Assembly: GCF_000331305.1 (NCBI RefSeq)
Contig: NZ_KB217478.1
Location: forward strand, 3,747,315-3,811,314
Reading direction: 5' to 3'
DNA from: Calothrix sp. PCC 7103
GTDB lineage: Bacteria > Cyanobacteriota > Cyanobacteriia > Cyanobacteriales > Nostocaceae
Length of the DNA: 64,000 bases
Below the pieces are notes generated by a model. The model saw nothing but the letters and a program-made list of their open reading frames with translations, ran no database searches and was not told where the DNA came from. This document shows positions 27,972 to 50,449 of the stretch, in pieces. A program made the position numbers and the translations under genes. Positions within the stretch are counted from its first letter, which is position 1; every line of letters begins with the position of its first letter.

Positions 27972-28899
27972 TTATTCTTGGTGTGCGGCGCCTGCGACTA
28001 AGGGTTCGTTCATGCCGTAACCGTAGGGTGGTGATACTACTACGGGGATTTCTTCAAAGTTTTCAACGGGTGGTGGGGAGGATACTAACCACTCTAGACC
28101 TATTGCACGCCAAGGATTATCTGGCGCCTTGTCTCCGTTTATCCAGGAACTAATCATGTTTAAGATAAACGGTAATGTTGACATACCGAGTATGAAACCG
28201 CCGATACTAGCGATAACGTTCCAAAATGTGTATTCGGGGTCGTATGATGCGACTCGGCGTAACATTCCGTGTAAACCTAGGGGATGCATTGGGAAGAAGT
28301 TGAGGTTGGTACCAATGAAGGCTAACCAGAAGTGCAGTTTACCTAAGCCTTCGTAGTACATACGTCCGGTCATTTTAGGGAACCAGTGGTAGATGGCAGC
28401 AAATAAGCCCATCGTGACGGTTCCGTAAAGAACATAATGGAAGTGACCGACAACGAAATAAGTGTTATTAACATGGATGTCGATGGGAACTGAGGAGAGC
28501 ATAATTCCCACTACACCAGCAAACACGAACATTATTAAGCCACCCAAGGCAAATAACATTGGTGTGTTGAGTCGAATTTTACCACCCCAAATTGTTGCTA
28601 ACCAAGCAAAGACTTTAATACCAGTTGGTACTGATACAAACATTGTCGATATCATGAACACCATTCGCATCCAATTTGGTGTGCCACTAGCGTACATGTG
28701 GTGGATCCAAACTAAGCCACTCACTGCCGCTATCATTAGTGAGGAAATGGCAACTACCTTGTATCCAAATAACGGCTTACGCGAGTAAACTGGAAAAATT
28801 TCCGAGAAAATACCGAAAATTGGCAGTATTATCACGTAAACTGCTGGATGCGAATAGAACCAGAATAAATGTTGAAATAGTACTGGGTTTCCACCTTTA
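27972..28899 (-). CDS. ctaD: Heme-copper oxidase subunit I, C-terminal part of an interrupted gene
   Basis: Carries the binuclear-centre half of subunit I: YSHPAVY (CuB His and cross-linked Tyr, A2-type without the Glu), WIHHMYASG (two CuB His) and VVGHFHYVLYG (heme a3 and heme a His). Translation of the minus strand from 28899 reads KGGNPVLFQHLFWFYSHPAVYVIILP, in frame with the N-terminal part at 49693-50449. Upstream of KGG the frame turns into element DNA. A GTG near 28835 is open but cannot give a functional oxidase. After excision the two parts give about 556 residues, normal for the family. Confidence 0.96.
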
Positions 28900-28912
28900 C
28901 CACTATCCGGCT
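28886..28912. other. Left attachment site of the ctaD element
   Basis: The direct repeat GGTTTCCACCTTTA (28886-28899) is identical to 49693-49706. It overlaps the arm TTTACCACTATCCGGCT (28896-28912), which recurs inverted at 49672-49688. Left of the repeat is ctaD coding sequence; right of it is element DNA. Confidence 0.9.
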
Positions 28913-28943
28913 ATTATTAGAGAATTGAGTTACCCGACGAGAA

Positions 28944-30515
28944 ATGAACGTTGCAGGTCAAATTATTGGTTATGCCCGCGTTAGTACGGAAGAACAAAGC
29001 GACGACGAAGGTGCATTGGTCAAGCAATTACGCAGATTAAGAGAGAATGGTGCGACACAATTATTTTACGATGTTGGTCAGCGTACCAATGATAAGCGAT
29101 TAGGTATTAATCAAATAATTGAGTACATAGCTGCAAGTCGTGACGGCGCCGTGGCTAAGTTGATATTTACACGGTTGGACAGACTATCAGCGTCACCAAT
29201 ACTTTTTTATCGTTTGGTCGATGTATGTAGGAATAAACGGGTTGAGCTACAAGCCCTAGACGATTCGTTTGATGTTTCAACAGTTGGGGGGGAGTTCTCA
29301 GCTGACGTTCGTATAGCTGTGGCAAAGCACGAAGTCAGGATGATATCGTTGCGCGTTCGTAAAGATTTGGAGGTTAGGGCTAAATTGAATAAACCGCATT
29401 ATTTTGCACCTTTTGGGTATCGCGTAGTAGGCGAAAATTACGACCGCTACGAGAAAGACGATACCCCCTTAGTTTGTTTACTGAATGGTAAACGAGAAAT
29501 GACGGTAGCGGATGTAGCACGTCTTAGAATTGATATTTTCTTTGAGGTGGGAACTGTTCGTGGTGCTGCTAAACGATTAAACGAAATTTTTGGAATTGCC
29601 CGCATAAGCCCAATTCAACGTAATGCAGAAGTAAAAACTAATTCAATCACTGACGAAGAAATCAGTAATGACCTATGGGCACCTAGCAAGCAGTCAAGAA
29701 TGGTTTTTTCTAATCGACTATCAATTACTTCCACGGGTTTACAAAATTGGCTAGTTAACCCCATCCTTGCTGGAGGGGTGCCAAGGAATAAAACAAAGTC
29801 ATCTGAAGGTAAAAAATCTAACAGACCTCGTAACCAATGGTCTGTTACTTGGAATGTGCATCCATCAGAAGCAATAATATCACTGGCAGAACGTAACAAG
29901 ATTCTAGAAATATTTGCCCACAACAAAGAAAACAGATGGGTATCTGATACCCCAAAAGTTTGTAATGTTTTTTCTGGTTTGGTTCGTTGTAGTCAGTGTG
30001 GCAGTTCTTGCTCAATTCAAGGTACTAGGTTTCGCAAGCGTATAAACCGTAATATTTCTTATTTTCAATGTAACTACTACCGAAATGATGGATTGTGTAA
30101 GAACAAAACCATGATTTCTGATATTGAAATCGAGAAGCAGCTAATACCTTTATTAATAAAGGAAGCTGAACGGTTATCAGTATTGGGAGAAGAAATATCA
30201 CCCACTCAAGAAGATTATGAGGTAACAGAATTAAGGTGCCAGTTATCTCAGTTAAAAGCAATCTCCAAGCCCAATTTTGCAATACTAAAAGCAATAGAGG
30301 ATTTAGAGTCTCAAATAAATAGTGCGGTAGCTCAAAAGTCTAACCATAATAGGCAAATGATTATTGCTAAAGAGCGGATTGTTGCTGCATTTTCAAACCC
30401 TACATTTTGGGAATCGATTGACAGTCCCGCCGATAAAAAGCGCTTACTCGGCGAGGTTCTCTTAGAAATTCGAGTAGATGCCAAACAATTACAGAGTATC
30501 AAGTATAGAAGTTAA
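28944..30515 (+). CDS. xisF: Large serine recombinase, XisF-type excisase
   Basis: 523 aa, close to XisF of the Anabaena fdxN element. The catalytic domain begins IIGYARVSTEEQSDDEGALVKQL with the nucleophile Ser in RVST, and later has FTRLDRLSASP. A recombinase DNA-binding domain (ARLRIDIFFEVGTVRGAAKRLNE), a zinc ribbon (LVRCSQCGSSCS...YFQCNYYRNDGLCKN) and a coiled-coil C-terminus (about 415-465) follow. It probably excises the element that splits ctaD by recombining the 14-bp repeats. It starts 45 bp inside the left site. Contains one GGCGCC, so it belongs compositionally to the host. Confidence 0.93.
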   Translation: MNVAGQIIGYARVSTEEQSDDEGALVKQLRRLRENGATQLFYDVGQRTNDKRLGINQIIEYIAASRDGAVAKLIFTRLDRLSASPILFYRLVDVCRNKRVELQALDDSFDVSTVGGEFSADVRIAVAKHEVRMISLRVRKDLEVRAKLNKPHYFAPFGYRVVGENYDRYEKDDTPLVCLLNGKREMTVADVARLRIDIFFEVGTVRGAAKRLNEIFGIARISPIQRNAEVKTNSITDEEISNDLWAPSKQSRMVFSNRLSITSTGLQNWLVNPILAGGVPRNKTKSSEGKKSNRPRNQWSVTWNVHPSEAIISLAERNKILEIFAHNKENRWVSDTPKVCNVFSGLVRCSQCGSSCSIQGTRFRKRINRNISYFQCNYYRNDGLCKNKTMISDIEIEKQLIPLLIKEAERLSVLGEEISPTQEDYEVTELRCQLSQLKAISKPNFAILKAIEDLESQINSAVAQKSNHNRQMIIAKERIVAAFSNPTFWESIDSPADKKRLLGEVLLEIRVDAKQLQSIKYRS

Positions 30516-30930
30516 GCTACATCATCTTTACTTGATTTTTGGACACCTGCTTTTTGCTTCTCTTCAAAAGCTATAACCAGTCTCGCAATAAGTTGCGCTA
30601 GCGTTTCTTGATGAAGTGGTTTCGCTGTTTGCATATCAATAAACTGTTCGCTACTTCAAAATTACTCGAAAAACGAAAAATTTCTGTTCGCCGTTAACTC
30701 TTCAGAGGTAGCGGCTTTTTTATGTGGCACCTGTTCTAACCAGTTATTTCACTAATCTTACAAGGTCTTTTGCAATAGCTTCGCGGAAGCCGCGTTAATT
30801 CATAACCCATTATCGAAGCTGCAATGCGTAACGGAAGGTAATGTTGACCGGGAGCAACTGAAGCTACGTAGGCGTCTCCCATATTGCTCTTCAAGAATTG
30901 CCAGGGGAAACGCATCTAATTCCGAAAAAG
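30512..30930 (-). pseudogene. Decayed gene convergent with the recombinase
   Basis: Two fragments read on the minus strand. The first (about 30735-30930) gives ELDAFPLAILEEQYG and, after a frame change, VASVAPGQHYLPLRIAASIMGYELT. The second (30512-30634) gives a 40-residue end (MQTAKPLHQETLAQLIARLV...). Stops and a frameshift separate them. The two stop codons of this frame and xisF overlap. It could be a lost element gene, but it does not look like XisH or XisI. Origin unknown. Confidence 0.4.
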
Positions 30931-31716: not shown

Positions 31717-33708
31717 TTAGTTTTTCGTTTGGGGTTTCCAGAATGCAGCACGAATTATTGACCACATTAAAGACAAATTATAAATTGACCAAAAACCGTT
31801 AACTAGATAGTTCTCAGGGTATTCTAAACGACCTATAGCAAATTGATAAAGACTCCATAGTATTCCCAAAATTGTCAGAGCAAAAATTGTAATTTGAGGA
31901 AGTATGAGTTGATAATAAGTTCCTGATTGTCGTTGTTTAGGTGTAACCTGAAAATTAATTGATTTGCGTGTAAATACGCTAGTAACTGCTTGGATTAATA
32001 GTGGAAATAACGCAAATGCATATTGTTCACACCGCCATACTTCTTTTGCAGGTATCCCCCATGTGACAACCATAAAAGTCAGACGGTTGAGAATGAATGT
32101 AGGTAAAAAGTGGAGTGTAAAATCGAAGCCTAAAGTTTTGACAGGTGAGATTCCTGTAAAGAAAAATATGATGGGACAACTAAGAAAAATTAATGTGATA
32201 AATCCACAAAAATAGCTATACATTGTTTGGAAATAATGTAAGCGTTGCCAAAATGTTAATCCTGATTTGGTTAAGGGGTTTTCGCGTACTAAAACTTGAA
32301 TAGTACCCTGTGCCCAACGTAATCTTTGTTTGAGGGTAGAACTAAGGTCATCGGGTGCTAAACCTTCTGCTAAGAGTTCATGATGGTAAATAGATTGCCA
32401 ACCTGCTGCGTGAAGTCGCATCGCAGTGTTCATGTCTTCGGTAATACTATTACTAGACATTCCACCTACTAATTGAAATTCGTTGAGACGATTTTCATCT
32501 TGGGCAAATTCATCGGAGAAATATTGTAAACCAACATTCACTAATGCTTCCCGTCGAAGAATTGCATTTGTTCCCGTATAGAAAGCCGAATTCATCCCGT
32601 CTTTGCCTTGCTGGATCGGTCCGTAGAATAAATGCGCCTTATGTGCAAAAGGATCGTCGTCAGGAAGGTTATAGAAGTCTTGCGGAGTCTGGACAAATGC
32701 GATTTTATTTGCCTCGTATTTACCTGTAAATAGGTTGTAATTGTAAAAATGAGGTAAGACACGCTTGAGAAATTGAGGTTTGGGAATGTGATCAGCATCT
32801 AGGGTCAGGATAAATTCTCCAGATGTTTCACCGGAGAAGATTGCATAATTGAGATTTCCAGCTTTGGCATGATGTGCTACTCCTTTGGGTTTAGGACGAG
32901 CAATATAATGCAAGCGAGCAAGGTTAACTAGTTCAAGTTCTTGTTGATGAATTGCTTGTTGAAGATTCTGACGTTCGGATGCAAGAGCATCCTCAATATT
33001 TTGACTCTCTGGATTTAACCACAATAATAACTGTCGGAGATTTTTGACAAAACTAGTTGCTTGAGTATCCGCTGTGGTGATTTTGCCTGAAGATAATTCA
33101 TTGAGCCAAGTTTCAGTATTTTGACTACTTAATGCTAAATTATCTAATTCTTCTAGTCTGGAAACAAGTTGAAAATGTTTTTTGTCGATTTTGTCTGCTG
33201 CTGCTTGCAATGATGGGGACTGTAAATCTTCTAAAGATAAATTTTCAGTCATCATCCGCATATCAGGAGAATTTCCGTCGTCTAGAACGTAGACACGGAG
33301 TTTTGTTGGTGGATAATCAACTTCTAATGCTGCCCTTGCAGTCTGTTCTACGAGTTCCGGTGCTTCGTTATAACAAGTAATAAAAATATCAACTTGGGGA
33401 TAATTATCTTGAGGAAAAATTGGTGTTAATTGGTGAAGCGATTTGATTCTGCGCTCAATCGGTCGCCATAATCCAATGGTGAACATCACACCACCGATGT
33501 AGCTATAAATTTCTGCAAATAATAGAGGAATTGACAGCCATAATGCATCCACATTGATGGAGTTATGAATTCGCCAGTATAAATACCAAGCACCAAAAAT
33601 TAAGTTGATTTCAGCGATAAAGCGAAATAATAAGGTTCTTTTTTTCAGAGATGAGCGACTATTCTCATGAAAGTTATTTGTTGCTTCAGATAAGTAAAAT
33701 GATGTCAT
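31717..33708 (-). CDS. Cellulose-synthase-like family 2 glycosyltransferase (663 aa)
   Basis: Processive membrane beta-glycosyltransferase polymerising a UDP-sugar into an exported glycan. Two N-terminal helices (about 27-80), then the catalytic domain: FITCYNEAPELVEQT and VLDDGNSPD (first Asp), TLDADHIP (about 299-306, DxD), ITEDMNT (about 422) and QRLRWAQG (about 460, the Q-x-x-R-W). C-terminal membrane helices follow from about residue 485. A ~100-residue helical insertion separates the first Asp from the DxD. No PilZ domain, so cyclic-di-GMP control is not built in. Last gene of a four-gene operon. Confidence 0.9.
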   Translation of the reverse strand: MTSFYLSEATNNFHENSRSSLKKRTLLFRFIAEINLIFGAWYLYWRIHNSINVDALWLSIPLLFAEIYSYIGGVMFTIGLWRPIERRIKSLHQLTPIFPQDNYPQVDIFITCYNEAPELVEQTARAALEVDYPPTKLRVYVLDDGNSPDMRMMTENLSLEDLQSPSLQAAADKIDKKHFQLVSRLEELDNLALSSQNTETWLNELSSGKITTADTQATSFVKNLRQLLLWLNPESQNIEDALASERQNLQQAIHQQELELVNLARLHYIARPKPKGVAHHAKAGNLNYAIFSGETSGEFILTLDADHIPKPQFLKRVLPHFYNYNLFTGKYEANKIAFVQTPQDFYNLPDDDPFAHKAHLFYGPIQQGKDGMNSAFYTGTNAILRREALVNVGLQYFSDEFAQDENRLNEFQLVGGMSSNSITEDMNTAMRLHAAGWQSIYHHELLAEGLAPDDLSSTLKQRLRWAQGTIQVLVRENPLTKSGLTFWQRLHYFQTMYSYFCGFITLIFLSCPIIFFFTGISPVKTLGFDFTLHFLPTFILNRLTFMVVTWGIPAKEVWRCEQYAFALFPLLIQAVTSVFTRKSINFQVTPKQRQSGTYYQLILPQITIFALTILGILWSLYQFAIGRLEYPENYLVNGFWSIYNLSLMWSIIRAAFWKPQTKN

Positions 33709-33854
33709 ATAGATGGTTCCTTTGTTCTAAATAAATGTCGATTTTTGTATTGATTACTGAAGAAAGATAGAAAAACAATTAATTGTCTTGTTTTACATCA
33801 ATTTTTTATTTAATAAAATGAGATATTTTAAATAATATTGTGATGTCATTTTAA

Positions 33855-35414
33855 CTAAAATTTTATTTGAATTTGACCGGATAAATTGCGATTATTGTAA
33901 GGAGTATTACCTGTTTCTAATTCACGAGAACTACTAAAGTTATAGCCCAAATTTAAATTAAAATTTGGTAAAATTTTGGCATTACAACGAGCTTCATAAG
34001 TAGTTCCATTAGTTGTACTTCCATTGAGTATTTGTTGTCCTAGGTTAGCACTTAATCGACAGCTGAGAAAATCAAATATTTTTCTTTCCCAACCAGCTTC
34101 GAGATTATATACGAGAAAATCTTTAGGTGAAAAATAGCCAGCACCTTCTTGGCGATCGCGGTTGAATGTCCAAGCAAAAAGGTTTCCCGCAAGATAAAAT
34201 TCTCCAAATTTATGTTCGAGACGACTAAAGGATTGTTGCTCAAAGTTACCATCATTATAAAAACCAATTCGATAGAGGGTAAAAAAGCTCATATCCGGTT
34301 TTATTTGCCAATAAGCATTCAAGCCAGTACGAGTTGATGTAATGAATTTTTCCAGAGTTTGAGCGCTACTTTTATAAGGACCATGCTCTACTACCGCTGC
34401 TAGAAATAAAGCCGAATCGAGCTTGTAATCAGGGCTTAAGTTTACAAAAATTGGTCGATCTACTTGTAGGTTAAAATTTGCTGCAATCGGTAAGCGATTA
34501 AATATATCGATACCAGCTGCTGTTTGAATCGTAAATTTCTCAATTTTTGTTTGCCATCCAAACTTAAGGGGAATATTTGTAACTCCATCAAACTTAGGTT
34601 GCTCAAAGGTATTAAATCCTGTTTTAACACTTATCTTTTGTCCATTTATTAAACGAAACTGGAAGGTTGGCTCAATAATTTGGTTACGCTGATTAAATTT
34701 ATTGTAATCATTGCGAAAATTGATCTGCATACTTTCTAAAACTAATGGTGGTTTGGTAGGTGAATTTTTATTTTCTGGAGGTTTAATTGGCTTGGGTGGT
34801 GGAGGTGGCGGTAATTTTTTACCAGGGTTAAAGTTATTTGGTGCAGAAATTAATATTCCACCTAATTTATTATATCTATGTTTTTCTGATTCAGTGTCTA
34901 ATATTAAGGATTGTACTGATTCAGATTCTAATTTTTTTTGTAATAAAGTTATGTTGTTATTGTCAGTTTTTTGTATATTAGTTGTATGTTTTGTTTGATT
35001 GAGATGATTCTCTATATCCGTTACTGAAGTTATACGTTGTTTTGACTCTTCCAAGAAATCGAATCTATTGTTTTCTGCTTGGGGAATAGATATAAATGTT
35101 TGTTTTAAGTTGGGAAAATTATTTGGAGATACTTCTAAGTAGGATTCTGAGCTTGATTCTAGATTTTCTTCCAGGTTTTCAACAGAAGTAATGGCTTGAG
35201 AATTTTCCTCTCCATAAAATAAATTTAGTGATTTGCTGTCGTTAAGTTCTAATGCATGAACATTGGTTGTCAATAAACTCCAAGTGCAGGAGTAAAAAAA
35301 TATTTTAATAGCTATACAATCTGCTTTGGGTCTTAAAGAAAGGCTGAATTTTCGCGATACATAGCTATTATCTACATCTTTCACCAGCCTATATTTACTC
35401 AATTTTTTTACCAT
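33855..35414 (-). CDS. Probable outer-membrane beta-barrel protein with Pro-rich linker (519 aa)
   Basis: The N-terminus has a hydrophobic segment at about 33-55 (IAIKIFFYSCTWSLLTTNVHA) that could act as a late signal. A disordered region, a KKLPPPPPPKPIKPPE linker (about 198-213) and then alternating polar/aromatic beta strands to the end follow (for example YNLEAGWERKIFDFLSCRLSANLGQQIL and NLNLGYNFSSSRELETG, closing LSGQIQIKF). The last strand ends in Phe, typical of outer-membrane barrels. Placed between DUF3131 genes and the glycosyltransferase, it may be the glycan export pore. That role is inference. Confidence 0.7.
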   Translation of the reverse strand: MVKKLSKYRLVKDVDNSYVSRKFSLSLRPKADCIAIKIFFYSCTWSLLTTNVHALELNDSKSLNLFYGEENSQAITSVENLEENLESSSESYLEVSPNNFPNLKQTFISIPQAENNRFDFLEESKQRITSVTDIENHLNQTKHTTNIQKTDNNNITLLQKKLESESVQSLILDTESEKHRYNKLGGILISAPNNFNPGKKLPPPPPPKPIKPPENKNSPTKPPLVLESMQINFRNDYNKFNQRNQIIEPTFQFRLINGQKISVKTGFNTFEQPKFDGVTNIPLKFGWQTKIEKFTIQTAAGIDIFNRLPIAANFNLQVDRPIFVNLSPDYKLDSALFLAAVVEHGPYKSSAQTLEKFITSTRTGLNAYWQIKPDMSFFTLYRIGFYNDGNFEQQSFSRLEHKFGEFYLAGNLFAWTFNRDRQEGAGYFSPKDFLVYNLEAGWERKIFDFLSCRLSANLGQQILNGSTTNGTTYEARCNAKILPNFNLNLGYNFSSSRELETGNTPYNNRNLSGQIQIKF

Positions 35415-35469
35415 TTACCTAAAATGATGATTGACGTTCTAATATATCAAAAAATTAAAACCAAAAGCA

Positions 35470-38412
35470 TTATCTTGTACTAGTAGTTAACCAGTAAGCA
35501 GAATTGCGATCGCTCACATATCTGATTCGTGGTGCTGACTCCATCGGTAATCCCCGTCCAGAATCACTTTTATCGATAGCTTTCCACCAAGGAGAATTGC
35601 TATTGCTATTGGGACGAATCAATGGTTGATGTTGGGTAAGCTGATAAAGAAGAGATTCTAAAATCATGCTGTTGGTACTGCTGGTAAAACCGATCGCACT
35701 TTTGCCATCGGATTCATAAAACCCCTCGTAATAACCAATTGTGGGATTATATAAATCGGTTATCCCCTGCATCAAATCTTTTCCATAAGCATCTTCGGGG
35801 AATAATGCATGGTAAGCATAAGCAACAGCTGTACTCACCAAACGTTTTTCGGTGACAGGAGTTCCATCATCGGTTAAAGTTGCCCAAGGTTCTCCCCGTC
35901 CTACAATCGAGTTATGGATTGTATAGGGTTGACGATTGATTAATGTAGTACCGGAAGCTGTGAGTTTACCTGTACGACGGTATCGTTCTGCTTGTGCTTG
36001 CATGATTGGTGCGACAATTGCTCTCATTTGCGGGTCAAATCCAAATTCAAGTCCGTATAGTAAAAATGGATTACTAACCGTATACTGATTAACCTTCAAC
36101 TTAGTATCTTTGCGACGACGCTGAACTGGAATATCCACCCCTTCAATTGTTGCTTTTTCATAATCTCCACCCACAGCAGAACGATCTGCATTAAATCCCC
36201 AGACTTGAAATCCCCGTGCTGCATATTCTTCGTATCCTAGTCTGGTTTCTGGGAGAACGCGAGGTACGGAGCGTCCAATTTGGTCTTTAATTAAAGTCGC
36301 GCTAGAAAGAATCCCATCTCGGACAACTCGTAAGTACGACCAATCCAAAGCTATATTATCTACTGCATCCGTATATTCTGGGTGACAAGTTTTTAACATA
36401 TGTAGGGCTGCCATTACACGTCCTGTATCAAGACTAGACCAACCTGTGCCTTCAGGGACAGGGTTTCCGGCATAATCGACTGGTTGCAGTGTCCTAATAT
36501 CGTAACCTCGATTCGGTAATTCTCCTGTGAATAATTGTATTTTTGACAATGCACCGAGTAAATAACGAGTGCGGCGATCGAAGTCTTTAACAGAAATGAT
36601 ATCTAGGGTGCGTGCAGCATGGAGTGCGGCAAGGTAATCACCTAATCCCCACAGGGTAGCTCCTTTGAGGTCACTACGATCGCTAATTAATCCTGTATCT
36701 CGGTCAGAATTTGCTTGGAAATATGCCCAAGCAGCTCTAGCATACCTCTGTTGAACTACAGTAGCTCCTTTTTCTGGCACGGGACACAGTGATGCTTTCG
36801 GTTCCCCCACTGGAGGAATTGGTTCGATTTTGCTTGCAGTTGATTGATTATTTGCTGGAGGAGGGGGAGGAGGATTATTTGCTGGAGGAGGGGGAGAAGG
36901 ATTATTTGCTGGAGGAGGAGGAGGAGGAGGATTATTTGCTGGAGGAGGGGGAGAAGGATTATTTGCTGGAGGAGGAGGAGGATTATTTGCTGGAGGAGGA
37001 GGAGGAGGATTATTTGCTGGAGGAGGGGGAGAAGGATTATTTGCTGGGGTATTATTGGCTATTTGTGTTTGCTTATCGTTGCTAGGAAAAGGTGCAAAAC
37101 CAACGCGATCTCCACCAATCAAGGGTTTATTTCCACGGGCTTTATAATACAACATTTCCATAATTAAACCATTGGTGTTACCCGTCAGAGATTTATTTGG
37201 TTGTTTTGTCTCTTCATACAAACCCGCATAAAAACCACCACCATCTGGACTGCGTAGGTCTTTGACAGCATCAAATACTTTCTGTGCGTAGGGATTATCA
37301 GGGTATAAATATTTCCACCCAAATGCAGCTTTTGTACTAATACTACGTAACTGAGGATAATCCTCATTTTTTTCCGTAATTGTTGCCCAGGTTTTCCCGT
37401 TCGAGTACAGGGTATTGTAAAGAAAATATGGTTCGCGATCTATATTGTCTTCTGTAACTGCGGTGAGTTGTCCGGTGGTTTCAAATCGGCGTTTTTGTGC
37501 CTCCAATACCCTAGCAGTGTATTCTTTTAAATAACCACCTAAGCCAAATTCAAGACCATCCAGAATATAGGATTCGCTCACTACATAATTATTGGCATTT
37601 GTACTTTTATAGTCGCGCTTATCCACTGGCAATTTAACACCATTGACATCAACAAGTTCAAATGGCTCTAAAGCTGCTGCTTTTGGTGCTTTAAATCCCC
37701 ATAGTTCGTATCCCCGAACAGCATATTCTTCGTAACCCAAACGTCCTTCCTGAACCAACATTGTTGATTTGTCAGGAGCTATAGTTGCACCAAATAACTG
37801 CTCATCCTTGAGAGATCGTGCAATTTGCCACTTAGCTAAAATACCTTTAATCCAATCTCCATATCCGGGATGACAGGTACGGACAATATCAAATGCAGCA
37901 AGCATTCTACCAATATCTAAAGCTGACCAACCAATACCCCTTTCGATCGGGTTATTACCATAGTCAACCATTGCTCCGTTAGCAGCATGGTATACCTTAT
38001 TTGGTAAGGCATCTTCAAATAGCTTCAAACCTCCCAAACCTGTCAAAAACTTATTAAATCGTTGGTCAAATTCCGATTGGGGAATTAAATCCAACCAACG
38101 AGCTGCATTTAAAGCCATGAGATAATTACCCATATCCCACAGTGTTCCAGAAGGATAACCACCAGTAGAATTGGTAAATCCCGTGCTTTCTTGGTAGTTA
38201 TTGACAAAATACTGCCATGCGGCTTTTGCATAGGTTTGCTCCTCTGCTGTCAAAGGAGTGGTAATGATACTACAGCTATTATTGTTATTAGGTGGGTTTT
38301 GCGCTTGTGCAAGTTCTCCAGTGGGAATGCATAGCACAAATTGTAGCCATATTCCCACAAGAAATAGCGCAAACCGTTGCATCCACCTATCTTTTCGATT
38401 TTGCTGTAGCAT
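35470..38412 (-). CDS. Tandem DUF3131 exported protein (980 aa)
   Basis: Signal peptide about residues 11-38 (MQRFALFLVGIWLQFVLCIPTGELAQAQ). Two DUF3131 (glucoamylase-like alpha/alpha barrel) copies at about 60-440 and 565-940 share AWQYF/AWAYF, LWDMGNYLMALNAARWLDLI versus LWGLGDYLAALHAARTLDII, GWSALDIGRM versus GWSSLDTGRV, GRLGYEEYAVRGYELWGF versus TRLGYEEYAARGFQVWGF, and EPYFLYNTLY versus QPYTIHNSIV. They are joined by a Pro/Asn repeat linker. The domain is thought to act on polysaccharide but its reaction is not established. Located in the periplasm or outside; operon with a third DUF3131 protein. Confidence 0.88.
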   Translation of the reverse strand: MLQQNRKDRWMQRFALFLVGIWLQFVLCIPTGELAQAQNPPNNNNSCSIITTPLTAEEQTYAKAAWQYFVNNYQESTGFTNSTGGYPSGTLWDMGNYLMALNAARWLDLIPQSEFDQRFNKFLTGLGGLKLFEDALPNKVYHAANGAMVDYGNNPIERGIGWSALDIGRMLAAFDIVRTCHPGYGDWIKGILAKWQIARSLKDEQLFGATIAPDKSTMLVQEGRLGYEEYAVRGYELWGFKAPKAAALEPFELVDVNGVKLPVDKRDYKSTNANNYVVSESYILDGLEFGLGGYLKEYTARVLEAQKRRFETTGQLTAVTEDNIDREPYFLYNTLYSNGKTWATITEKNEDYPQLRSISTKAAFGWKYLYPDNPYAQKVFDAVKDLRSPDGGGFYAGLYEETKQPNKSLTGNTNGLIMEMLYYKARGNKPLIGGDRVGFAPFPSNDKQTQIANNTPANNPSPPPPANNPPPPPPANNPPPPPANNPSPPPPANNPPPPPPPANNPSPPPPANNPPPPPPANNQSTASKIEPIPPVGEPKASLCPVPEKGATVVQQRYARAAWAYFQANSDRDTGLISDRSDLKGATLWGLGDYLAALHAARTLDIISVKDFDRRTRYLLGALSKIQLFTGELPNRGYDIRTLQPVDYAGNPVPEGTGWSSLDTGRVMAALHMLKTCHPEYTDAVDNIALDWSYLRVVRDGILSSATLIKDQIGRSVPRVLPETRLGYEEYAARGFQVWGFNADRSAVGGDYEKATIEGVDIPVQRRRKDTKLKVNQYTVSNPFLLYGLEFGFDPQMRAIVAPIMQAQAERYRRTGKLTASGTTLINRQPYTIHNSIVGRGEPWATLTDDGTPVTEKRLVSTAVAYAYHALFPEDAYGKDLMQGITDLYNPTIGYYEGFYESDGKSAIGFTSSTNSMILESLLYQLTQHQPLIRPNSNSNSPWWKAIDKSDSGRGLPMESAPRIRYVSDRNSAYWLTTSTR
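36845..37056 (-). repeat. Coding repeat of the (P)nANN linker
   Basis: The linker of the tandem DUF3131 protein is built of about nine near-identical 24-30-bp units encoding NNPPPPPPA or NNPSPPPPA. DNA identity between units is high and unit length varies by whole Pro codons, the mark of slippage. The antisense frames rich in LEEE or ICWRR are shadows. Confidence 0.9.
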
Positions 38413-38448
38413 TTTCTAATTACGCTCAATAATGAATGCAAATATCAT

Positions 38449-39903: not shown

Positions 39904-40099
39904 AAGGCTACAACATTATTTAACAACATTATTAATCTCGATATGAGGCAATTGATGAGAATAATTTAACTTGTATCCATTTATCTTTAGTGAATTATAT
40001 AAAATAATTTATTCACAACAGATATAAAAAATACGAAATAATCAGTTATTTTATTTATTACAAGTCCATCAGTCTTTAATAGTGGGTATAATCATATAA

Positions 40100-40221
40100 G
40101 TAGGTAGACGTGAAAAAGTGCCGCTAGATTAAGAAATGTAAATCGCTTAAAACCTTATTTTTAAAGCCTTTATGGCACTTTACACAAGTTTAGATAGTTG
40201 ACTTTAATTGTACCCACCTAC
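40100..40221. repeat. Small inverted-repeat element (about 122 bp)
   Basis: GTAGGTAGACGTGAAAAAGTGCC at the left is loosely matched, inverted, by GGCACTTTACACAA and ACCCACCTAC at the right. The first seven bases (GTAGGT-G) and AAAGTGCC agree. Flanks ATAA/TTAT are mirror images. No coding capacity. Probably a degenerate MITE. Confidence 0.4.
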
Positions 40222-40272
40222 TTATTCATTGTCAACAATCAATTCATAAATATAAGCTCATTCTTGTAAATA

Positions 40273-40455
40273 AATATCTATAGATGAATGCCACTAAGTT
40301 AAAACATAGCCCTTGCCCTGGCTGGTTTTCAGCATCAAGGCTGGGAACCAATTCTGGGAGGCTCTGCATCTCGAAATACATTCCTAGCCTCCAGGCTGGA
40401 AAGCAGGAGAAGAAAGACTTTCGGCTTATCTTCGTGCCATTCATCTATAGATATT
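40273..40455. repeat. MITE-like element with ~20-bp terminal inverted repeats
   Basis: ATATCTATAGATGAATG at the left (40275-40290) is repeated inverted at the right end (near 40439-40454), followed inward by CCA/GGCA. The 180-bp interior contains direct and inverted GC-rich pieces (GCCTCCAGGCTGG, AGGCTCTGCATCTCGA), and reads through in several frames without a real gene. Same size class as non-autonomous transposons of cyanobacteria. Confidence 0.6.
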
Positions 40456-40700
40456 ATTCCCAGTAAAATTTAGAAACTAACATTAAATATTTTTTAATTT
40501 GTTTCAATGGGGGCATCCCAAATGTGTAAAAGCATATTTTGTCAACAGCTTGAGAAAAGCCTACAAACAATAACATTAAATTACTAATAATTATTTACTT
40601 TTATAGCTCAAATCAACTCAGCTTGTCCTAAACTCATTAATATCGACTTTTGTCAATACCTCTAAAAATTTTTTAGATGCGTTTGCCCTGGTTTTAATGA

Positions 40701-41855: not shown

Positions 41856-43358
41856 CTATACAACTACTTAATTTTATTTAATTTATATAAATGAAGGAAA
41901 AAGCAAGGAAGAAGGAATAACTAATAACTAATAAAACTTTAGTTCTGAGTTTCAACCTCAGTCAAAAAAAGATGTTTTTTGAGGTTGCATAGCACGAAAA
42001 AAAACAGTTTCCTTCTTACAAACTAAGGGGGAAGCAAAATGACATCCCTTGTTTGCGCTTGTTCAATCTCACCCCTTTTAAGGGTGGGTACTTCTCAATA
42101 CGGTTCGGTTAATAGCCGTGAAATAAATTTCCGACTCACAGCACAAACCCATTTTAATGGGTTAAAAGACCCAGCCCTTTCAACGCAAACTAAAATACTA
42201 CTTTTTCTTGATAACCAAACAACGGGCTTTTAAACTGTCGTCTGATTCCAAAGTCAGTATGCTTAGTCTAAAAAAGTATATTTTTTAGCTTTTGATTAGA
42301 AGATACTCGTTAATTAAGTTCTAATTTCTTCTAAGTTCTAATTTCTTCTAATTTATAATGTCTGCTAAAAAGTTAGCTATAGGTTAAAATATAGACAGAG
42401 CAAGACTTTTAAGCATTTTGATAAAGTAGTTCATGAGTTCGCGTTGATAGGGCTGGTTAAAAGACCCCCCAGTCAGCTTTTAGCTTACTTTAGTTATTAG
42501 CCCGCAATTTATTGCAGGGCGGGATTTTGGGCTTAACCGAACAGTATTGGGGTACTTGTTACAAATTTCTTCCTCCTTCTTTCTTCGTGAAAGCGTACAA
42601 TCGACGAGAAGGTCTATCCCTTGAAGGAAGCAGCTTTCTCGCAGAGTAGTGCCTACACAAAATTATAGCTTGCTACTCGCAAAGTAGGTATTGCGAATTG
42701 TTTCAATATCCCACTATCCAATCATTATGCAACAAGACTATTTGTTTTAACGTATACGCAAAAAATAATTTTGTTTGTTTTGTTGATATATTTTTATTTT
42801 TTTAAGACACTTGACCCGATGAAATGATATATGCGACGAATTTAACTTATTTTTCTTGTTGAATTAAAAGTTATTAGTAAAATTCCTGTATCCAGGATGA
42901 ACAAATAGTTGTTACTAATTTAGAAGATTAATATTAATTAATAAACAAAAACTGAGATTCCTAAGCCTCTCCCCGTAGACAGAGAGAGGTTGGAGAGGGT
43001 TTATATACTTAGTCAATCTTTAATGTATTCGCAGTATATAAATAGGCATAGGAGTATGTGCGGAAGGTTTTATTAGACTTAAAATTTAAATAAAAATTCT
43101 ATTTATTGTAAAACAATGATAAATTGCGATTATGAATATATACAAAACAAACAAAAAGAACATTGCGTCTTCTCGCAAATTAGTGCAAAATAATAATATC
43201 TATATCTTGAAAAACGTGAATTTATTAATCGACAATTTTTATTGTCAAAATACTTTATGTTTAATTGTTTTAAACTAAGTACTCCATTTGATTAAATCCA
43301 CGTTTTTGAGTAAGATTTGTACAAAAAAACAGTATTAGCTACTCATTACAAATATTTT
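41856..43358. other. 1.5-kb non-coding region between phosphatase and STAS genes
   Basis: No credible gene. It includes AACCCATTTTAATGGGTT (42147-42164), a perfect palindrome, and an inverted-repeat unit described separately (42096-42549). The divergent promoters of the phosphatase and STAS genes must lie here. A 64-codon frame at 42039-42233 has no supporting features. Confidence 0.5.
42096..42549. repeat. Transposase-less element bounded by CAATAC-GTTCGGTTAA inverted repeats
   Basis: CAATACGGTTCGGTTAA (42097-42113) reappears inverted as TTAACCGAACAGTATTG (42533-42549), one mismatch in 17, and GGTAC follows outward on both sides. The 420 bp in between has no gene. It looks like the shell of an insertion sequence or a MITE. 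Confidence 0.5.
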
Positions 43359-43688
43359 ATGTCCACAAATACAAAAATTATTCAACCATCAGGAATATTG
43401 AATTCAATTAGCGGCAATCAACTACGTCGATATATTAATGATTGTGTTGCCGCAGGAGCTAAGATAGTATTGGTTGACTTGCAAGAAGTTGATTTTATAG
43501 ATAGTTCTGGTCTCGGTGCGTTAGTTGCCGCAATGCAAACCGTCAAATCATCAGATGGGCAAATGTTTATTTGCTCGCTTAATGAGCAAGTAAAAATGTT
43601 ATTTGAATTAACCAAGATGGAAAGAATATTTAAAGTTTTTGCCAATCAAGAGAAATTTAAAAATCATTTTTTAGCAATTGAAAAATAG
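43359..43688 (+). CDS. STAS-domain anti-sigma-factor antagonist (109 aa)
   Basis: SpoIIAA/RsbV-type protein: LNSISGNQLRRYINDCVAAGAKIVLVDLQEVDFIDSSGLGALVAAMQTVKSSDGQMFICSLNEQVKMLFELTKMERIFKVF. The phosphorylatable Ser is in DSSGLG. It should be phosphorylated by the kinase at 44002 and dephosphorylated by the phosphatase at 40701. ATG 43359 (MSTNTKIIQPSG) fits the family start; an upstream TTG at 43317 would add 14 atypical residues. The domain covers the whole protein. Confidence 0.93.
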   Translation: MSTNTKIIQPSGILNSISGNQLRRYINDCVAAGAKIVLVDLQEVDFIDSSGLGALVAAMQTVKSSDGQMFICSLNEQVKMLFELTKMERIFKVFANQEKFKNHFLAIEK

Positions 43689-44001: not shown

Positions 44002-44439
44002 ATGAATATAGATTTCATCAACATCAATCAAAGAATATATCTGCAAGCACCCTCAGATATTACTGCTTCTGAGGAAGTTTTATCTTGGTTCGAGCAGATT
44101 AACCAGCCAGCGATCGCAGACAAAAAAGTATGGTGGCAATGCCAGACGCTTTTAATTGAAGGATTTATCAATATCGTTGAACATGCTCATGGTAGCTTAT
44201 CACCTGACACACTCATAGACCTAGAAGCAATTCGGTTTAATGAACATATCGAGATTCGGATTTGGTCTTACGGTCAAGCATTTGACTTGGAAAAAAATCT
44301 AAATGAGACACCCGAGCTTGATGCTAATTTTGATGCGCGAGGTCGTGGCTTGAAAATAATGTCCGCAATTGCAGATCGGCTCAGTTATGATGTGCAATCA
44401 GATAATCAATGCTGTTTATTTATAAGTAAGAATATTTAA
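44002..44439 (+). CDS. RsbW-like anti-sigma/serine kinase (HATPase) (145 aa)
   Basis: GHKL ATPase of the SpoIIAB/RsbW group. The N box is CQTLLIEGFINIVEHAH (Glu and Asn for Mg-ATP), and a G box follows with NFDARGRGLKIMSAIADRLSYD. Its length is the family norm. It should phosphorylate the STAS protein and, through that, release a target. Same strand as the STAS gene and originally close to it; the gap is now filled by a MITE. No sigma factor is nearby, as usual for cyanobacterial partner-switching sets such as HmpUVW. Confidence 0.9.
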   Translation: MNIDFININQRIYLQAPSDITASEEVLSWFEQINQPAIADKKVWWQCQTLLIEGFINIVEHAHGSLSPDTLIDLEAIRFNEHIEIRIWSYGQAFDLEKNLNETPELDANFDARGRGLKIMSAIADRLSYDVQSDNQCCLFISKNI

Positions 44440-45208: not shown

Positions 45209-47896
45209 ATGCTTAAACAAGAAAAATTAGCAATGAATAAAGATACCAACACTCTCAGTGGCACTAATGGAGATGACGTTATCTTCGGTGGTACAACTAA
45301 CGATGTTATTTATGGTGGCAATGGAAATGATGTAATTGTAGGTAACAAAGGTGATGATATTATCGCTGGTAACAGAGGTAACGATTCTTGGTTAGAGGGC
45401 AATGATGGCAATGACATCATCGAAGGGGGTACTGGGGACGATAAACTCTCTGGTGGAGACGGTAATGACTGGATGCATGGCGATGAAGGTGATCAATCCT
45501 GGGGATTAGATGCTAACGGAAGCTATATCTATCTTGGAACAGTTGATTATACAGGAGCAGGTTTTGTCAGTGATGCAGACTCTACAAATGCTACTGATGA
45601 CAGTTCAGAAACGCATAACGATTATTTAACAGGTGGCTCTGGAAACGACATTCTCATTGGTGGCAAGGGTAGAGATGCCATTGATGGGGGTACTGGAGAT
45701 GACATCATCAATGGTGGTGAAGGTGATGACTACTGGTTAGCTGGTAAGGAAGGTAACGACACCATTAACGGTGATGCTGGCAATGATGTTCTTGAAGGTG
45801 GTGCAGGCAACGATACCCTGAATGGTGGTACCGAAGACGATAAATTAATGGGCGAAACTGGACAAGATGTCCTGCAAGCAGGTTCAGGAAATGACTACCT
45901 TGATGGTGGTGATGATAATGACTATCTCGATGGTGGTAGTGGTCATGATCATCTCAAAGGCGAAAGTGGCAACGATATATTAATTGCCAGAGAAGGTAAT
46001 GATATTCTCGAAGGTGAAGAAGGTAACGACCTACTTGTCGGTGGTGAAGGTGATGACTACTGGATGAGTGGTGGTGCTGGAAATGATGCGCTTTACGGCG
46101 AAAGTGGTAGCGATGTCATGGATGGCGGTGAAGGTGATGATGTGATGGATGGTGGTGAGGATAATGATATTCTCATTGGCGGTACAGGCAATGACAAAAT
46201 CAACGGTGCCCAAGGTGCAGATATTATCGATGGTGGTACTGGTGAAGATTTGATTACGGGTGGAGAAGGCGATGACAACATCCACGGGGGTGCAGATGCT
46301 GATACCATTTGGGGCGATTCTGGAAATGATGCTCTTTACGGAGATGCTGGAAATGATACCGTTGGCGGTGGTGATGGTGACGACTACATCAACGGTGGTG
46401 ATGGCGACGATATATTAATGGGTGGCGCTGGTGCCGATGCCATTGAAGGTGGCAACGGTAACGACAAAATTGCTGGTGGAGAAGGTGATGACCGTTGGCT
46501 TTCAGGTGGTGCTGGTAATGACAACATCGACGGGGAAGCCGGAAACGACATCATCAATGGTGGTGATGGTAACGATATTTTAGTAGGAGGTAATGGCAAT
46601 GATGTGATTATGGGCGGAGCTAGTAGTGATGTTCTAGTTGGTGAGGCTGGTGATGATTATTGGATGGATGGCGGCGAAGGGGATGATTTTGTATACGGTG
46701 GTGCTGGTAATGATGTTGTCGCAGGTGGTGCAGGAAATGACTTAGTAACTGGCGATGATGGCAATGATATTGTTCTCGGCAATGAAGGTAATGATACTCT
46801 CTACGGTGGCGCAGGTGCTGACATCATCGATGGTGGCGCAGGTGACGATATAATTAATGGTGGCACTGGTGACGATATAATTAATGGTGCTCAGGGAGAC
46901 GACATACTTAATGGTGCTCAGGGTAACGACATAATTGATGGTGGTACTGGGAATGATACCCTGATTGGTGGAAATGGCAATGACACCATATTAGGTGGTG
47001 CAGATGATGACGTTCTCTATGGAGAAGAAGGTAACGATATTCTTGATGGTGGTACAGGTGACGATACCCTGTATGGTGGTGCAGAGAACGATATTCTCAA
47101 AGGTGGCGCTGGTAACGATATCCTCAATGCTGGTACAGGTGACGACACAATCGAAGCTGGTGAGGGTAATGATCTCTTAATTGCTAGTGATGGTAAAGAT
47201 GCTCTCTTTGGAGAAGCTGGTGATGATAAAATCTACGGCGAACTCGGTAACGATTACCTGAATGGTGGTGACGGTAATGATCTACTAGAAGGTGGTGACG
47301 GTAATGATGTACTAGAAGGTGGTGCTGGCAATGATGTCCTAGAAGGCGGTGCTGGTAATGATGCTTGGCTTTCAGGTAATGAAGGCAATGATGTTATTTC
47401 TGGTGGCGACGGCAATGATGTTCTTTCTGGTGATGCTGGTGACGATATCCTCAATGGTGGTGAGGGTAATGACCAGTTACTAGGCAACATTGGAAATGAC
47501 CAACTTGTTGGAGGTGCTGGTAATGATTACTTACTAGGTGCAGATACCGCCACTGCTTTTGGTAAGGGTAGTGTTGATATTATGACTGGTGGTAGTGGTT
47601 ATGACTACTTTGTGTTGGGCGACAAAAAAGCCTTTTACAATGATGGTGATAATACCTCAGCAGGGTTACAAGATTATGCCCTGATCACCGATTTCAACGC
47701 TGTAGAAGACAAAATTCAGTTGGTGGGAAGTGCTGACAATTATGTCTTAGGTCAAGTTGAAGGTATGAAAAAAGGCGTAGGTATTTTCTTAGATACCAAC
47801 GCAGATGGTCAATTTAACTCGAAATATGAGTTAGTAGGTGTTGTTGAAGGTTCTTCTGAGTTGAACCTAAAAGACTCATCATTCGTCTACATTTAA
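45209..47896 (+). CDS. Giant RTX calcium-binding repeat protein (895 aa)
   Basis: Almost the whole protein from residue 18 to 770 consists of GGxGxDxUx nonapeptides (for example [20 protein letters not shown]), more than sixty of them, which fold as Ca2+-stabilised beta rolls. The last ~110 residues ([15 protein letters not shown]...[16 protein letters not shown]...[20 protein letters not shown]) are the usual C-terminal cap carrying the type I secretion signal. No enzyme domain. No ABC/HlyD exporter lies nearby. Start either ATG 45209 or ATG 45233. Probably a secreted surface or sheath protein. High internal DNA repetition. Confidence 0.93.
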
Positions 47897-48516
47897 TTTT
47901 GTTTTGGCGATCGCAGTTTTTCAGAATTTCGGTTTGCCAGATGTGACAAAGAGATAAATAACATGGAGATGTGGTAGATTTATTTGATGAATCTTTCCAC
48001 TTCTCCACTTTTTGGTTCTTTTCAGATTCCGAAAAAATACTTAAATATTTTTAGATATGGCTAAAAATCCAATATTGTAGAATATTATACCAGCATTTTA
48101 ATCTTTAGATAATTCTTATGGCTGTTTTACAAACAAAACAATCAATTCAAACATTATCAACGAAAAAAAGATAAAACAAACATTGATGAAGTAAAAATAT
48201 TATTTATAGCTCAATTTACAACGATAAATTGTAAATCGTAGGATTACTTATATTGCTATTGTTAATCTCAAAAAAATAAGTAGAGATAAGGTAGCTTCTA
48301 AGTAATTAGTAAGTTATCATTATAAATTAAGTTACAGTAAATTTAAGCTTTGTGAAGTACATAAAGACCACACCCGTTATGCGAACCTTTCGCGCAAAAT
48401 GCAGGGAGGAATTTTTGTATAATCCACTTAAATGAAAAACGCTGTATTTTTTGAATGATATTCAAAATGTCATAAATAATTTATTATTTTTTATTAGTAA
48501 TGTAATTTTTCCTGCA
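47897..48516. other. Intergenic region between RTX and parvulin genes
   Basis: About 620 bp, AT-rich. It begins with a HIP1 octamer GCGATCGC (47907-47914). No gene visible. A possible promoter region for the parvulin gene. Confidence 0.5.
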
Positions 48517-49233
48517 ATGGCTCACTCGATTCAAATTGGCAATCGTAGCGTTACTGCTACAGAAATTATTCCATTGTTAATCAAGCATCAAATGTTGCCG
48601 CAGTTGCGACGCATTTTAATTCTTGATGAAGCAATAGCTTCTATTGAAATAACCCAAGAAGAACAAGAAGATGCGATTAAGCAATTTTTGAATCACATGA
48701 CAACACCTGTGGCACGTTCTGCTGTGATGAAGCATTACGGAATGACAGAGGAACAGTTGCAAGAAGTAGCAATCAACGAATTCAAATTAGAAAAATTTAA
48801 GCAAAAAACTGTTGGTTCAAAAGTTGAATCTAGTTTTTTAACTCAAAAATCCCAATTTGATAAAGTGATTTATTCTCTGATTCGTACAGAAAATGCTGAA
48901 ATAACTCAAGAACTTTACTATCGGATTAAAGCAGGTGAACAATCCTTTGCTGAATGTGCGAAAAGTTATTCAGCTGGAGTAGAAGCACAAACAGGAGGAT
49001 TAATTGGACCAGTACCCCTAAGTCAACCCCATCCAGCACTTGCTCAAAAGCTCATATCCTCGCAACCAGGGCAATTATGGCAACCAATGCGTTTAGAAAA
49101 TTGGTTTATTATTCTCAGACTAGAAAAGTTAATTCCTGCCCAGTTAGATGATACGATGCGAAGTCAACTTCAAAATCGCTTGTTTGAAACGTGGTTAACG
49201 CAGGAAATGAGTAAGGTACAAATAACAGTCTAA
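48517..49233 (+). CDS. Parvulin-type peptidyl-prolyl isomerase (238 aa)
   Basis: Foldase of the SurA/PrsA/parvulin group without a signal peptide from this start. N-terminal helical chaperone domain (IGNRSVTATEIIPLLIKHQMLPQLRRILILDEAIASIEITQEEQEDAIKQF). The parvulin domain (about residues 115-220) has RIKAGEQSFAECAKSYSAGVEAQTGGLIGPVPLSQPHPALAQKL. A TTG at 48451 would add 22 residues. Such isomerases accompany type I secretion genes in cyanobacteria, which fits the adjacent RTX protein. Confidence 0.88.
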   Translation: MAHSIQIGNRSVTATEIIPLLIKHQMLPQLRRILILDEAIASIEITQEEQEDAIKQFLNHMTTPVARSAVMKHYGMTEEQLQEVAINEFKLEKFKQKTVGSKVESSFLTQKSQFDKVIYSLIRTENAEITQELYYRIKAGEQSFAECAKSYSAGVEAQTGGLIGPVPLSQPHPALAQKLISSQPGQLWQPMRLENWFIILRLEKLIPAQLDDTMRSQLQNRLFETWLTQEMSKVQITV

Positions 49234-49660
49234 ACTTGACAGGAAAAAGAAGTTAATAATTCCGCAGCCATAACATCAAATTTAGTAATCTCATGACTGC
49301 TCATAACGCTACGGTTACAGATTTTCTTACGGGCATCTCACCCTTTAACGCAGGGAAAACTTGCCTTAAAATGTAACAATAAATACTATTTTTAGACTAA
49401 AAATATGCATCAAAGTTTGACGGCGCCACCAATTGTAACATCTGCCACATCACCTAACCTCACCCTGAAATTCGCTGGTGCCACTATGATCGTGTCCTGC
49501 ACCTGCTAGTACAATTATATAGACATTAAATAGAAGCATCAACATTGCACTATCTGAGACTCACGGCAACCATAGACTATGATTTGAAAAAACTTGTGCA
49601 GATAAACATGCTTGGAACCGCCAAATAACACTATTTTAGCTGCATCGGCAAGTACCACTC
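49234..49660. other. Right-hand end region of the element
   Basis: About 430 bp. It contains GGCGCC at 49422, the first since 31474, so host-like composition resumes here, still inside the element. A 34-codon frame lies at 49405-49509. Confidence 0.5.
49405..49509 (+). CDS. Tiny open frame (34 aa), doubtful
   Basis: ATG...TAG frame beginning MHQSLTAPPIVTSATS and ending SCTC. It contains the GGCGCC that marks the return of host-like DNA. It could be the remaining start of a truncated element gene. No ribosome site and no family match that I recognise. Confidence 0.2.
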   Translation: MHQSLTAPPIVTSATSPNLTLKFAGATMIVSCTC

Positions 49661-50449
49661 CTAATTTAAAAAGCCGGATAGTGGTAAAACATGGTTTCCA
49701 CCTTTATCTGGATTGAAAAATGCTGTACCAACGCTTAAATCAAACAGTAGCATTATGGCGCCTGCTGTTAATGCTGGTAATCCAAATAACTGGATAATTT
49801 GCGCGCTGAAAACTGCCCAAACGAATAGTGGCATACGAAAGAACGTCATTCCCGGCGCCCGCATTTTGACGATGGTAGTAACAAAATTTACACCACCCAT
49901 AATGGAGGAGACACCAGATACAGCTACAGCAAGCAGCCAAATAAATTCACCGTTGATTAAGTTTCCTGTAGGGTTTTGGGTACTAACTGGGGGATAAGAC
50001 CACCAGCCAGCTTGAGCCGGTCCACCCGGTACAAAGAAGCTCACCATTAATAATAGACCCGCAACAGGTACCATCCAGAAAGCTGCTGCGTTTAGGCGAG
50101 GAAATGCCATATCGCGGGCGCCTATCATTAAGGGTACGAGATAATTCGCAAATCCTACAAGCGATGGAAATGTCCAACCAAAAAGCATCACAGTCCCGTG
50201 CATGGTGAATAAACCATTGTACACAGTACGGTCAACAAGGTCGGCTTCTGGAGTGAGTAATTCACCCCTCATAATCATTGCGAAAATGCCACCAACGAGT
50301 AGAAATATAAAGGAAGTAACAAGGTATTGAATACCTATTACCTTGTGGTCGTGGCTGAAGCTAAAGTAAGTTTTCCAGGTTGTGGGAGGAAGATGGTGAT
50401 GTTTTTCAATCACAACGCTGGAACTTTTCTCAACGTTGATGTGTGTCAT
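49661..50449 (-). CDS. ctaD: Heme-copper oxidase subunit I, N-terminal part of an interrupted gene
   Basis: First about 251 residues of subunit I. They include helix I (HKVIGIQYLVTSFIFLLVGGIFAMIMR), the low-spin heme His in LFTMHGTVMLFGW and NYLVPLMIGARDMAFPRLNAAAFW. The frame leaves ctaD at KGG (49693) and reads 11 element codons (NHVLPLSGFLN) to a stop at 49661. Without excision the product lacks every CuB ligand. It starts 44 bp after the subunit II stop. The remaining protein is encoded at 27972-28899. Confidence 0.96.
   Translation of the reverse strand: MTHINVEKSSSVVIEKHHHLPPTTWKTYFSFSHDHKVIGIQYLVTSFIFLLVGGIFAMIMRGELLTPEADLVDRTVYNGLFTMHGTVMLFGWTFPSLVGFANYLVPLMIGARDMAFPRLNAAAFWMVPVAGLLLMVSFFVPGGPAQAGWWSYPPVSTQNPTGNLINGEFIWLLAVAVSGVSSIMGGVNFVTTIVKMRAPGMTFFRMPLFVWAVFSAQIIQLFGLPALTAGAIMLLFDLSVGTAFFNPDKGGNHVLPLSGFLN
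49672..49706. other. Right attachment site of the ctaD element
   Basis: AGCCGGATAGTGGTAAA (49672-49688), the inverted copy of the left arm, is followed four bases later by the direct repeat GGTTTCCACCTTTA (49693-49706). Right of it is ctaD coding sequence (minus-strand ...FFNPDKGG). Confidence 0.9.

Follow-up and report, generated by a model that had tools for sequence, protein, structure and literature searches.

A probable programmed excision element of the XisF type, with foreign-looking cargo, in the oxidase gene coxA3 of Calothrix sp. PCC 7103

Analysis of 64 kb of contiguous DNA from Calothrix sp. PCC 7103 (hereafter the window, meaning the whole stretch analysed) showed that coxA3, an oxidase subunit I gene, is split by a 20.8-kb element, and we consider it highly likely that this is an XisF-type programmed excision element in the gene for subunit I of a CuA-less heterocyst oxidase of the ARTO/Cox3 type. 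Very probably it had already been described for this strain in 2016 and is thus not new: Hilton, Meeks and Zehr reported 101 elements from 38 surveyed genomes, 28 of which had elements, counted subunit I of cytochrome oxidase as one of the target genes and chose the coxA3 element of PCC 7103 for their Fig. 1 (PMC4874684). This settles a point that an earlier reading of the window, made from the sequence alone (the sequence-only reading), had left open, namely whether surveys had listed this gene. Among the papers listed by literature searches no other report on coxA3 elements was seen. Our additions beyond the 2016 survey are the attachment palindrome, the apparent turnover of the cargo and its foreign-looking character.

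Both halves of coxA3 lie on the minus strand, where the gene order is two DUF2231 genes, coxB, the coxA N-terminal half, the element, the coxA C-terminal half and coxC. The edges of the element carry identical copies of a 14-bp direct repeat, GGTTTCCACCTTTA, starting at 28886 and 49693, and no third plus-strand copy occurs in the 64-kb window. Removal of one repeat copy together with the interior takes out 20,807 bp and fuses ...FFNPDKGG in frame to NPVLFQHLFW, giving a single CoxA3 frame of 556 amino acids plus stop. Neither half alone is a complete gene; the N-terminal frame enters the element by about 10 codons and ends after 262 amino acids, and the earliest start codon in the C-terminal frame lies about 50 bases beyond the junction. 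The sequence-only reading had described halves 20.8 kb apart in operon order, the same repeat at both ends, an in-frame join of about 556 residues and an XisF-type recombinase beginning 45 bp inside the element, and each of these holds, the recombinase gene having its ATG at 28944 and its product passing the XisF cut-off. The split operon and the ends of the element comprise the following features.

27309-27905, minus strand: coxC3, oxidase subunit III (Pfam COX3, 9.6e-35)
27972-28885, minus strand: C-terminal half of coxA3, which together with the repeat covers residues about 248-556 (joined frame; 98% identity to the C-part of PCC 7716)
28886-28899: left direct repeat GGTTTCCACCTTTA, putative attachment core (14-bp identity to the right copy)
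28886-30922: left shell, comprising repeat, arm, xis and following DNA (common to PCC 7716, 95.8% nucleotide identity over 27973-30922)
28896-28912: left inner arm TTTACCACTATCCGGCT (across the junction of the circle, an inverted copy of the right arm, exact over 17 bp)
28944-30515, plus strand: xis, XisF-family serine recombinase, 523 amino acids (NCBIfam NF041201; Pfam Resolvase and zinc ribbon)
49610-49706: right shell (common to PCC 7716, 93.4% identity over 49610-50167)
49672-49688: right inner arm AGCCGGATAGTGGTAAA (inverted match to the left arm)
49693-49706: right direct repeat GGTTTCCACCTTTA (identity to the left copy)
49693-50449, minus strand: N-terminal part of coxA3, encoding residues 1 to about 252 (joined frame)
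50494-51465, minus strand: coxB3, subunit II without CuA cysteines (alignment of the genome's four CoxB beside four coxA loci)
51490-52098, minus strand: DUF2231 membrane protein of the cox3 operon (domain match)
52098-52595, minus strand: DUF2231 membrane protein of the cox3 operon (domain match)

The joined CoxA3 protein was searched against 192 genomes of the family. Unbroken coxA3 orthologues were found in three genomes of the same genus (G076, G030 and G101, at 99%, 98% and 96% identity), and the join matches the gene as it exists in relatives, because these orthologues align to the joined protein over residues 1-556; the empty-site DNA was examined for G076 and G030. Among the seven same-genus genomes the element near residue 250 is present in the window genome and in Calothrix sp. 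PCC 7716 (G138), and two others (G115 and G127) have a coxA3 that is uninterrupted across this site. PCC 7716 is also the single locus returned when genome contigs were searched with the recombinase, at 96% identity. The coxA3 of this strain is broken into three parts (residues 246-556, 91-262 and 1-102). The residue-250 element there is about 200 kb long, its left end matching that of the window as far in as 30922 and its right end as far in as 49610. A same-strand split that is joined in frame by deletion between exact direct repeats, a site-specific recombinase gene inside at one end and an unbroken orthologue in close relatives are features of heterocyst interruption elements that the 20.8-kb insert shows, and the excisable XisF-type element that the sequence-only reading had proposed for an oxidase gene is supported by the sequence and by the relatives.

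Resolvase-type N-terminal motifs, a zinc ribbon and a score of 454 bits against the cut-off of 375 for the NCBIfam XisF family NF041201 identify the xis product as an XisF serine recombinase, and it also matches the integrase family phrog_95 (PHROGs). Its YARVST and RLDRL stretches, which presumably contain catalytic residues, could be aligned with two solved serine recombinases, gamma-delta resolvase and a DNA invertase. Rebuilding the junction of the circle gave AGCCGGATAGTGGTAAA, 14 bp and TTTACCACTATCCGGCT in succession, which is an exact 17-bp inverted repeat with its centre, GGT^TTCC, within the direct repeat; a repeat search on each element end separately had found no arm pair, because the arms lie 20.8 kb apart. 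As a single strand this junction folds 9 standard deviations better than shuffles, and the same test of the restored gene site against shuffles gave no such excess stability. Because of the symmetry of the palindrome, its centre, and there the TT of GG-TT-TCC, is most likely the point of crossover.

A second search for splits covered 20 of the 192 genomes (same-genus genomes, those with a close recombinase and those with a weaker best match). It placed coxA3 breaks near residue 250 in four genomes (G138, G095, G068 and G022), near residue 101 in ten (G138, G115, G127, G095, G068, G019, G022, G056, G108 and G122) and near residue 316 in two (G033 and G191); for genomes with the parts on separate contigs the split is inferred (G068 for residue 250; G127, G019, G056 and G122 for residue 101). 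The rows of G143 and G179, whose abutting parts look like frameshifts, were excluded from these counts, and the partial rows of G007 were left out. The best palindrome centre has the same register in four of the five genomes with the residue-250 split (the window genome, G138, G095 and G068), with scores, out of 33, of 21 in the window, 23 in G138, 20 in G068 and 15 each in G095 and G022, as compared with 8-15 in all five genomes tried at the residue-101 site, where the longest word shared by the edges is only 6-8 bp and no such symmetry of attP was found. The score stands out only in the window, G138 and G068, two of these three being close kin, and G095 lends support by register alone. In PCC 7716 the two edges of the element differ from each other on both sides of the palindrome centre and share the central dinucleotide, and they have 11 bp in common beside the centre rather than the exact 14-mer.

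The sequence-only reading had labelled the gene a cytochrome oxidase, and although it is indeed an oxidase subunit I gene, a cytochrome c oxidase identity was rejected on account of a CoxB without the CuA cysteines. Among the four CoxB proteins beside the four coxA loci of the genome two keep CAELCG; that of the window reads DSQFSGTYFATM and that of locus L159 the same or a close equivalent, both without the CuA cysteines. A CuA-less subunit II together with two small upstream genes (DUF2231) is what characterizes an ARTO/Cox3 operon, and the coxA3 operon, which has both, is of the CuA-less quinol oxidase type. Its order matches alr2729-alr2730-coxB3-coxA3-coxC3 of Anabaena 7120, described as a CuA-less quinol oxidase whose expression is confined to heterocysts (PMC6616624). 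The present operon agrees with Cox3/ARTO in gene order and in the loss of CuA, and may likewise act in heterocysts. The operon at L159 also holds relatives of the two DUF2231 genes.

We propose that in vegetative cells coxA3 would remain split, the element being inherited with the chromosome, and that the serine recombinase would pair both edges, probably during heterocyst formation, cut within the 14-bp repeat, most likely at the central TT, and release a 20,807-bp circle, whereby the 556-amino-acid CoxA3 would be restored. An oxygen-consuming oxidase of the heterocyst would then stand under the same cut-to-activate arrangement as the nitrogenase genes, a proposal supported by the selection tests described below, the unbroken orthologues and the sister genome. 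Several observations weigh against it. A second, intact ARTO-type operon (L159, G000:C7:1225000-1234000) has a CuA-less CoxB and a CoxA that is 79.5% identical, and it could cover the function. The palindrome score of G095 is no higher than those of the residue-101 sites, and in G022 the palindrome centre lies elsewhere. Across the genome searched (11.58 Mb in 12 contigs) there are 17 matches for XisH and 25 for XisI (E <= 0.001), with none in the window, and no other directionality factor was identified for the coxA3 element. Finally, sites of the NtcA type (GTA-N8-TAC) are not enriched, the window having 16 as against 13.6 expected from shuffles, and no regulatory claim is based on them. This chance-level count would also suit excision outside heterocysts, in another cell type or condition, or sporadic excision in a small number of cells, and triggers outside heterocysts are discussed by Hilton et al. 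(PMC4874684); we nevertheless regard this course as fairly unlikely, given that the counterpart operon of Anabaena 7120 is heterocyst-only (PMC6616624) and that nifD of the same genome is interrupted as well.

The intact operon likewise raises the alternative of a dead insertion, in which excision has ceased and the function is served by the ARTO paralogue. Ratios of nonsynonymous to synonymous substitution (dN/dS, by the Nei-Gojobori method) speak against this. Between the window and PCC 7716 they are 0.038 for the C-terminal half and 0.063 for the middle of coxA3, and 0.221 for xis, and between the window and the three unbroken orthologues they are 0.034-0.049 for each half, while the intact paralogue gave 0.069 and 0.064 against same-genus counterparts at similar distance. 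The split coxA3 is as constrained as intact genes and under strong purifying selection; it is no relic. A comparison with G049 (L061) gave 0.058 for the N-terminal half and no usable dS for the C-terminal half, and L003 gave 0.030 against L088 and 0.068 against L058, with dS saturated. A value of 0.308 for the first piece against PCC 7716 was dropped, its alignment having run past the junction into the element. The sequence-only reading had held that a second intact copy might expose the split gene as a dead relic; such a copy of the ARTO type does exist, but its CoxA falls into a different clade, together with copies from G138 and G127, and in view of this and of the strong constraint on the split gene it does not do so. 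With both parts of the gene and xis keeping open frames, and with the inner arms and shell ends conserved in PCC 7716, a dead insertion appears quite improbable. Purifying selection on both halves would equally be expected if they were made as two polypeptides and assembled without DNA excision, but the position of the C-terminal start codon past the junction, the run of the N-terminal frame into the element and the single chain encoded in three same-genus genomes render this extremely improbable. An assembly artefact can practically be dismissed, as the same split and ends recur in the PCC 7716 genome, which is titled complete.

The residue-250 element is one of several in coxA3. At the residue-101 edges, read in six genomes, a resolvase-type gene lies at one edge in G138, G115, G095, G127 and G019, and none was seen at the single edge read in G022, the C-part of whose coxA3 holds a TAG, so that this copy may be decaying. 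Domains were checked in three of these five genes, one of which scores 537 bits for XisF. That of G138 fell below the 1e-60 threshold in the search with the window recombinase, and the residue-101 recombinase is thus not that of the window. In PCC 7716 the residue-101 split corresponds to loci L124 and L125. The residue-316 inserts are about 2 kb (L132:5648-7880 in G033 and L133:6900-8715 in G191), and the former encodes an integrase, matched in PHROGs at 1.2e-13 and by neither Pfam nor NCBIfam, that seems, by eye from its motifs, to be of the tyrosine type; an open reading frame (ORF) in the G191 insert looks similar to it by eye. Distinct recombinases at residues 250, 101 and 316 point to three entries into one gene by three different recombinases. 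The text of the 2016 survey counts two coxA3 variants (PMC4874684). In G115 (C1:3663103-3696874) a different coxA, 56% identical to coxA3, has an apparent split near residue 186, with some 32 kb between its parts, which share a strand. The nifD gene of the window genome is in four pieces (G000:C7:2184913-2257052; model positions 1-70, 63-288, 264-434 and 427-466), and its breaks near model positions 70, 288 and 434 roughly fit the published nucleotide variants 227, 895 and 1355, model and gene numbering differing by about 6-18 residues; variant 227 is given for two strains, Rivularia PCC 7116 and Calothrix PCC 7103 (PMC4874684). This correspondence speaks for identity of the coxA3 element with the published one. 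XisF relatives occur near nifD at C7:2186827 and C7:2153118, beside parts that by eye are nifK-like and hupS-like.

Nine cargo ORFs were scanned with Pfam.

31717-33708, minus strand: cellulose-synthase-like glycosyltransferase (Pfam)
33855-35414, minus strand: 519-amino-acid protein (no Pfam match)
35470-38412, minus strand: protein with two DUF3131 stretches (Pfam)
38449-39903, minus strand: DUF3131 protein (Pfam)
40701-41855, minus strand: response regulator with SpoIIE phosphatase domain (Pfam)
43317-43688, plus strand: STAS-domain (anti-anti-sigma-like) protein (Pfam)
44002-44439, plus strand: HATPase_c_2 (anti-sigma-kinase-like) protein (Pfam)
45209-47896, plus strand: RTX calcium-binding repeat protein (Pfam)
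48451-49233, plus strand: PpiC-type peptidyl-prolyl isomerase (Pfam)

The palindromic tag common in the genus, GGCGCC, occurs 158 times in 79,990 bases of other loci of the same genome (some of them overlapping), a sample in which GCGATCGC is nearly absent (one copy). Of GGCGCC the element has 4 copies and its flanks have 60 (binomial p 7e-7), and for GCGATCGC the counts are 4 and 0 (p 0.011); about 18 kb of its interior, between GGCGCC copies at 31474 and 49422, is free of the host tag and contains the four GCGATCGC, and the G+C content of the element is 37.0% versus 40.3% in the flanks. For the cellulose-synthase-like protein the best match, at 90% identity, is in G009, a genome of another genus; copies in three same-genus genomes are 69% identical, other matches listed among the 192 genomes being at 64-72%. 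Relatives of seven of the nine cargo ORFs lie in one 40-kb stretch of G009, which has 38 GCGATCGC versus 0 GGCGCC and is 82-87% identical in DNA to 31718-41862 where aligned; the STAS and HATPase genes, on the other side of the cluster there, are 74% identical in DNA, and with the filter on this stretch gave no counterpart of the RTX and PpiC genes. A scan for over-represented k-mers was uninformative. The simplest reading is that a largely foreign cargo resides in a native shell.

In PCC 7716 the contents are different. A megablast comparison of the two interiors gave no match above 150 bp, and by tblastn with the low-complexity filter on none of the nine cargo ORFs was found in the PCC 7716 element except for a partial match to the response regulator at 36%; tblastn did return xis there, at 96%. 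The possibility that the PCC 7716 interior is DNA that lies at another chromosomal place in the window genome was tried on one 20-kb piece out of about ten, which had 37 scattered matches in the window genome, the longest about 1.5 kb at 83%, and no contiguous counterpart was seen there for that piece. Most of the length of the PCC 7716 interior keeps GGCGCC, and its last 40 kb include five GCGATCGC. The dS of xis between the two strains is 0.077, versus 0.149 and 0.333 for coxA3, and could reflect recent exchange of the shell. On balance we lean towards a long-lived, exchangeable cargo bay, that is, an XisF shell of about 2 kb in coxA3, common to at least two strains of the genus, whose contents would have been replaced as a whole. 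In the window the contents are about 18 kb that look foreign and include a polysaccharide and Rsb-like gene cluster, the best match of which is in a genus tagged with GCGATCGC; PCC 7716 has about 200 kb there, most of it with the host tag. In this proposal coxA3 would be a hot spot with three sites and three recombinases. If true, such cargo would be germ-line-only DNA that is lost in terminal cells. With the same shell and different contents, the two strains form a pair suited to direct tests, and the comparison of their cargo bears on what excision elements carry and why they persist, questions that the text of the 2016 survey discusses and does not settle (PMC4874684).

Elsewhere in the window an rRNA operon (16S, tRNA-Ile, tRNA-Ala, 23S, 5S) lies at 810-5882, and the region 55639-58970 has a group II intron (reverse-transcriptase-like ORF at 55639-57612; Rfam match at 57609-57685) and, directly after it, two ORFs that look by eye like pieces of an IS66-like transposase.

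Compared with the published coxA3 element of PCC 7103, the element described here interrupts the same gene and has xis opposite to the gene and near the element end, as there, and no difference was found in the survey text, the comparison covering features other than coordinates and length (PMC4874684). With the fdxN element of Anabaena sp. PCC 7120 (XisF) it shares an XisF-family serine recombinase, direct repeats and in-frame repair, whereas its target is an oxidase gene. In the fdxN element xisH and xisI lie within the element and assist there; the window has no match to either family, which sets the coxA3 element apart from the fdxN element proper. The large serine integrase phages and skin/sigK resemble it in the attP-like site of about 48 bp, of a size usual for serine integrase attachment sites, in the inverted arms and short core and in the phrog_95 match, but unlike the phages it has no phage structural gene among the nine cargo ORFs (Pfam; one ORF without a match). 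The recombinases of the nifD and hupL elements, XisA and XisC, belong to the tyrosine superfamily and differ in this from the serine recombinase of the coxA3 element, which in other respects is like these two elements in interrupting a gene and in bringing its own recombinase.

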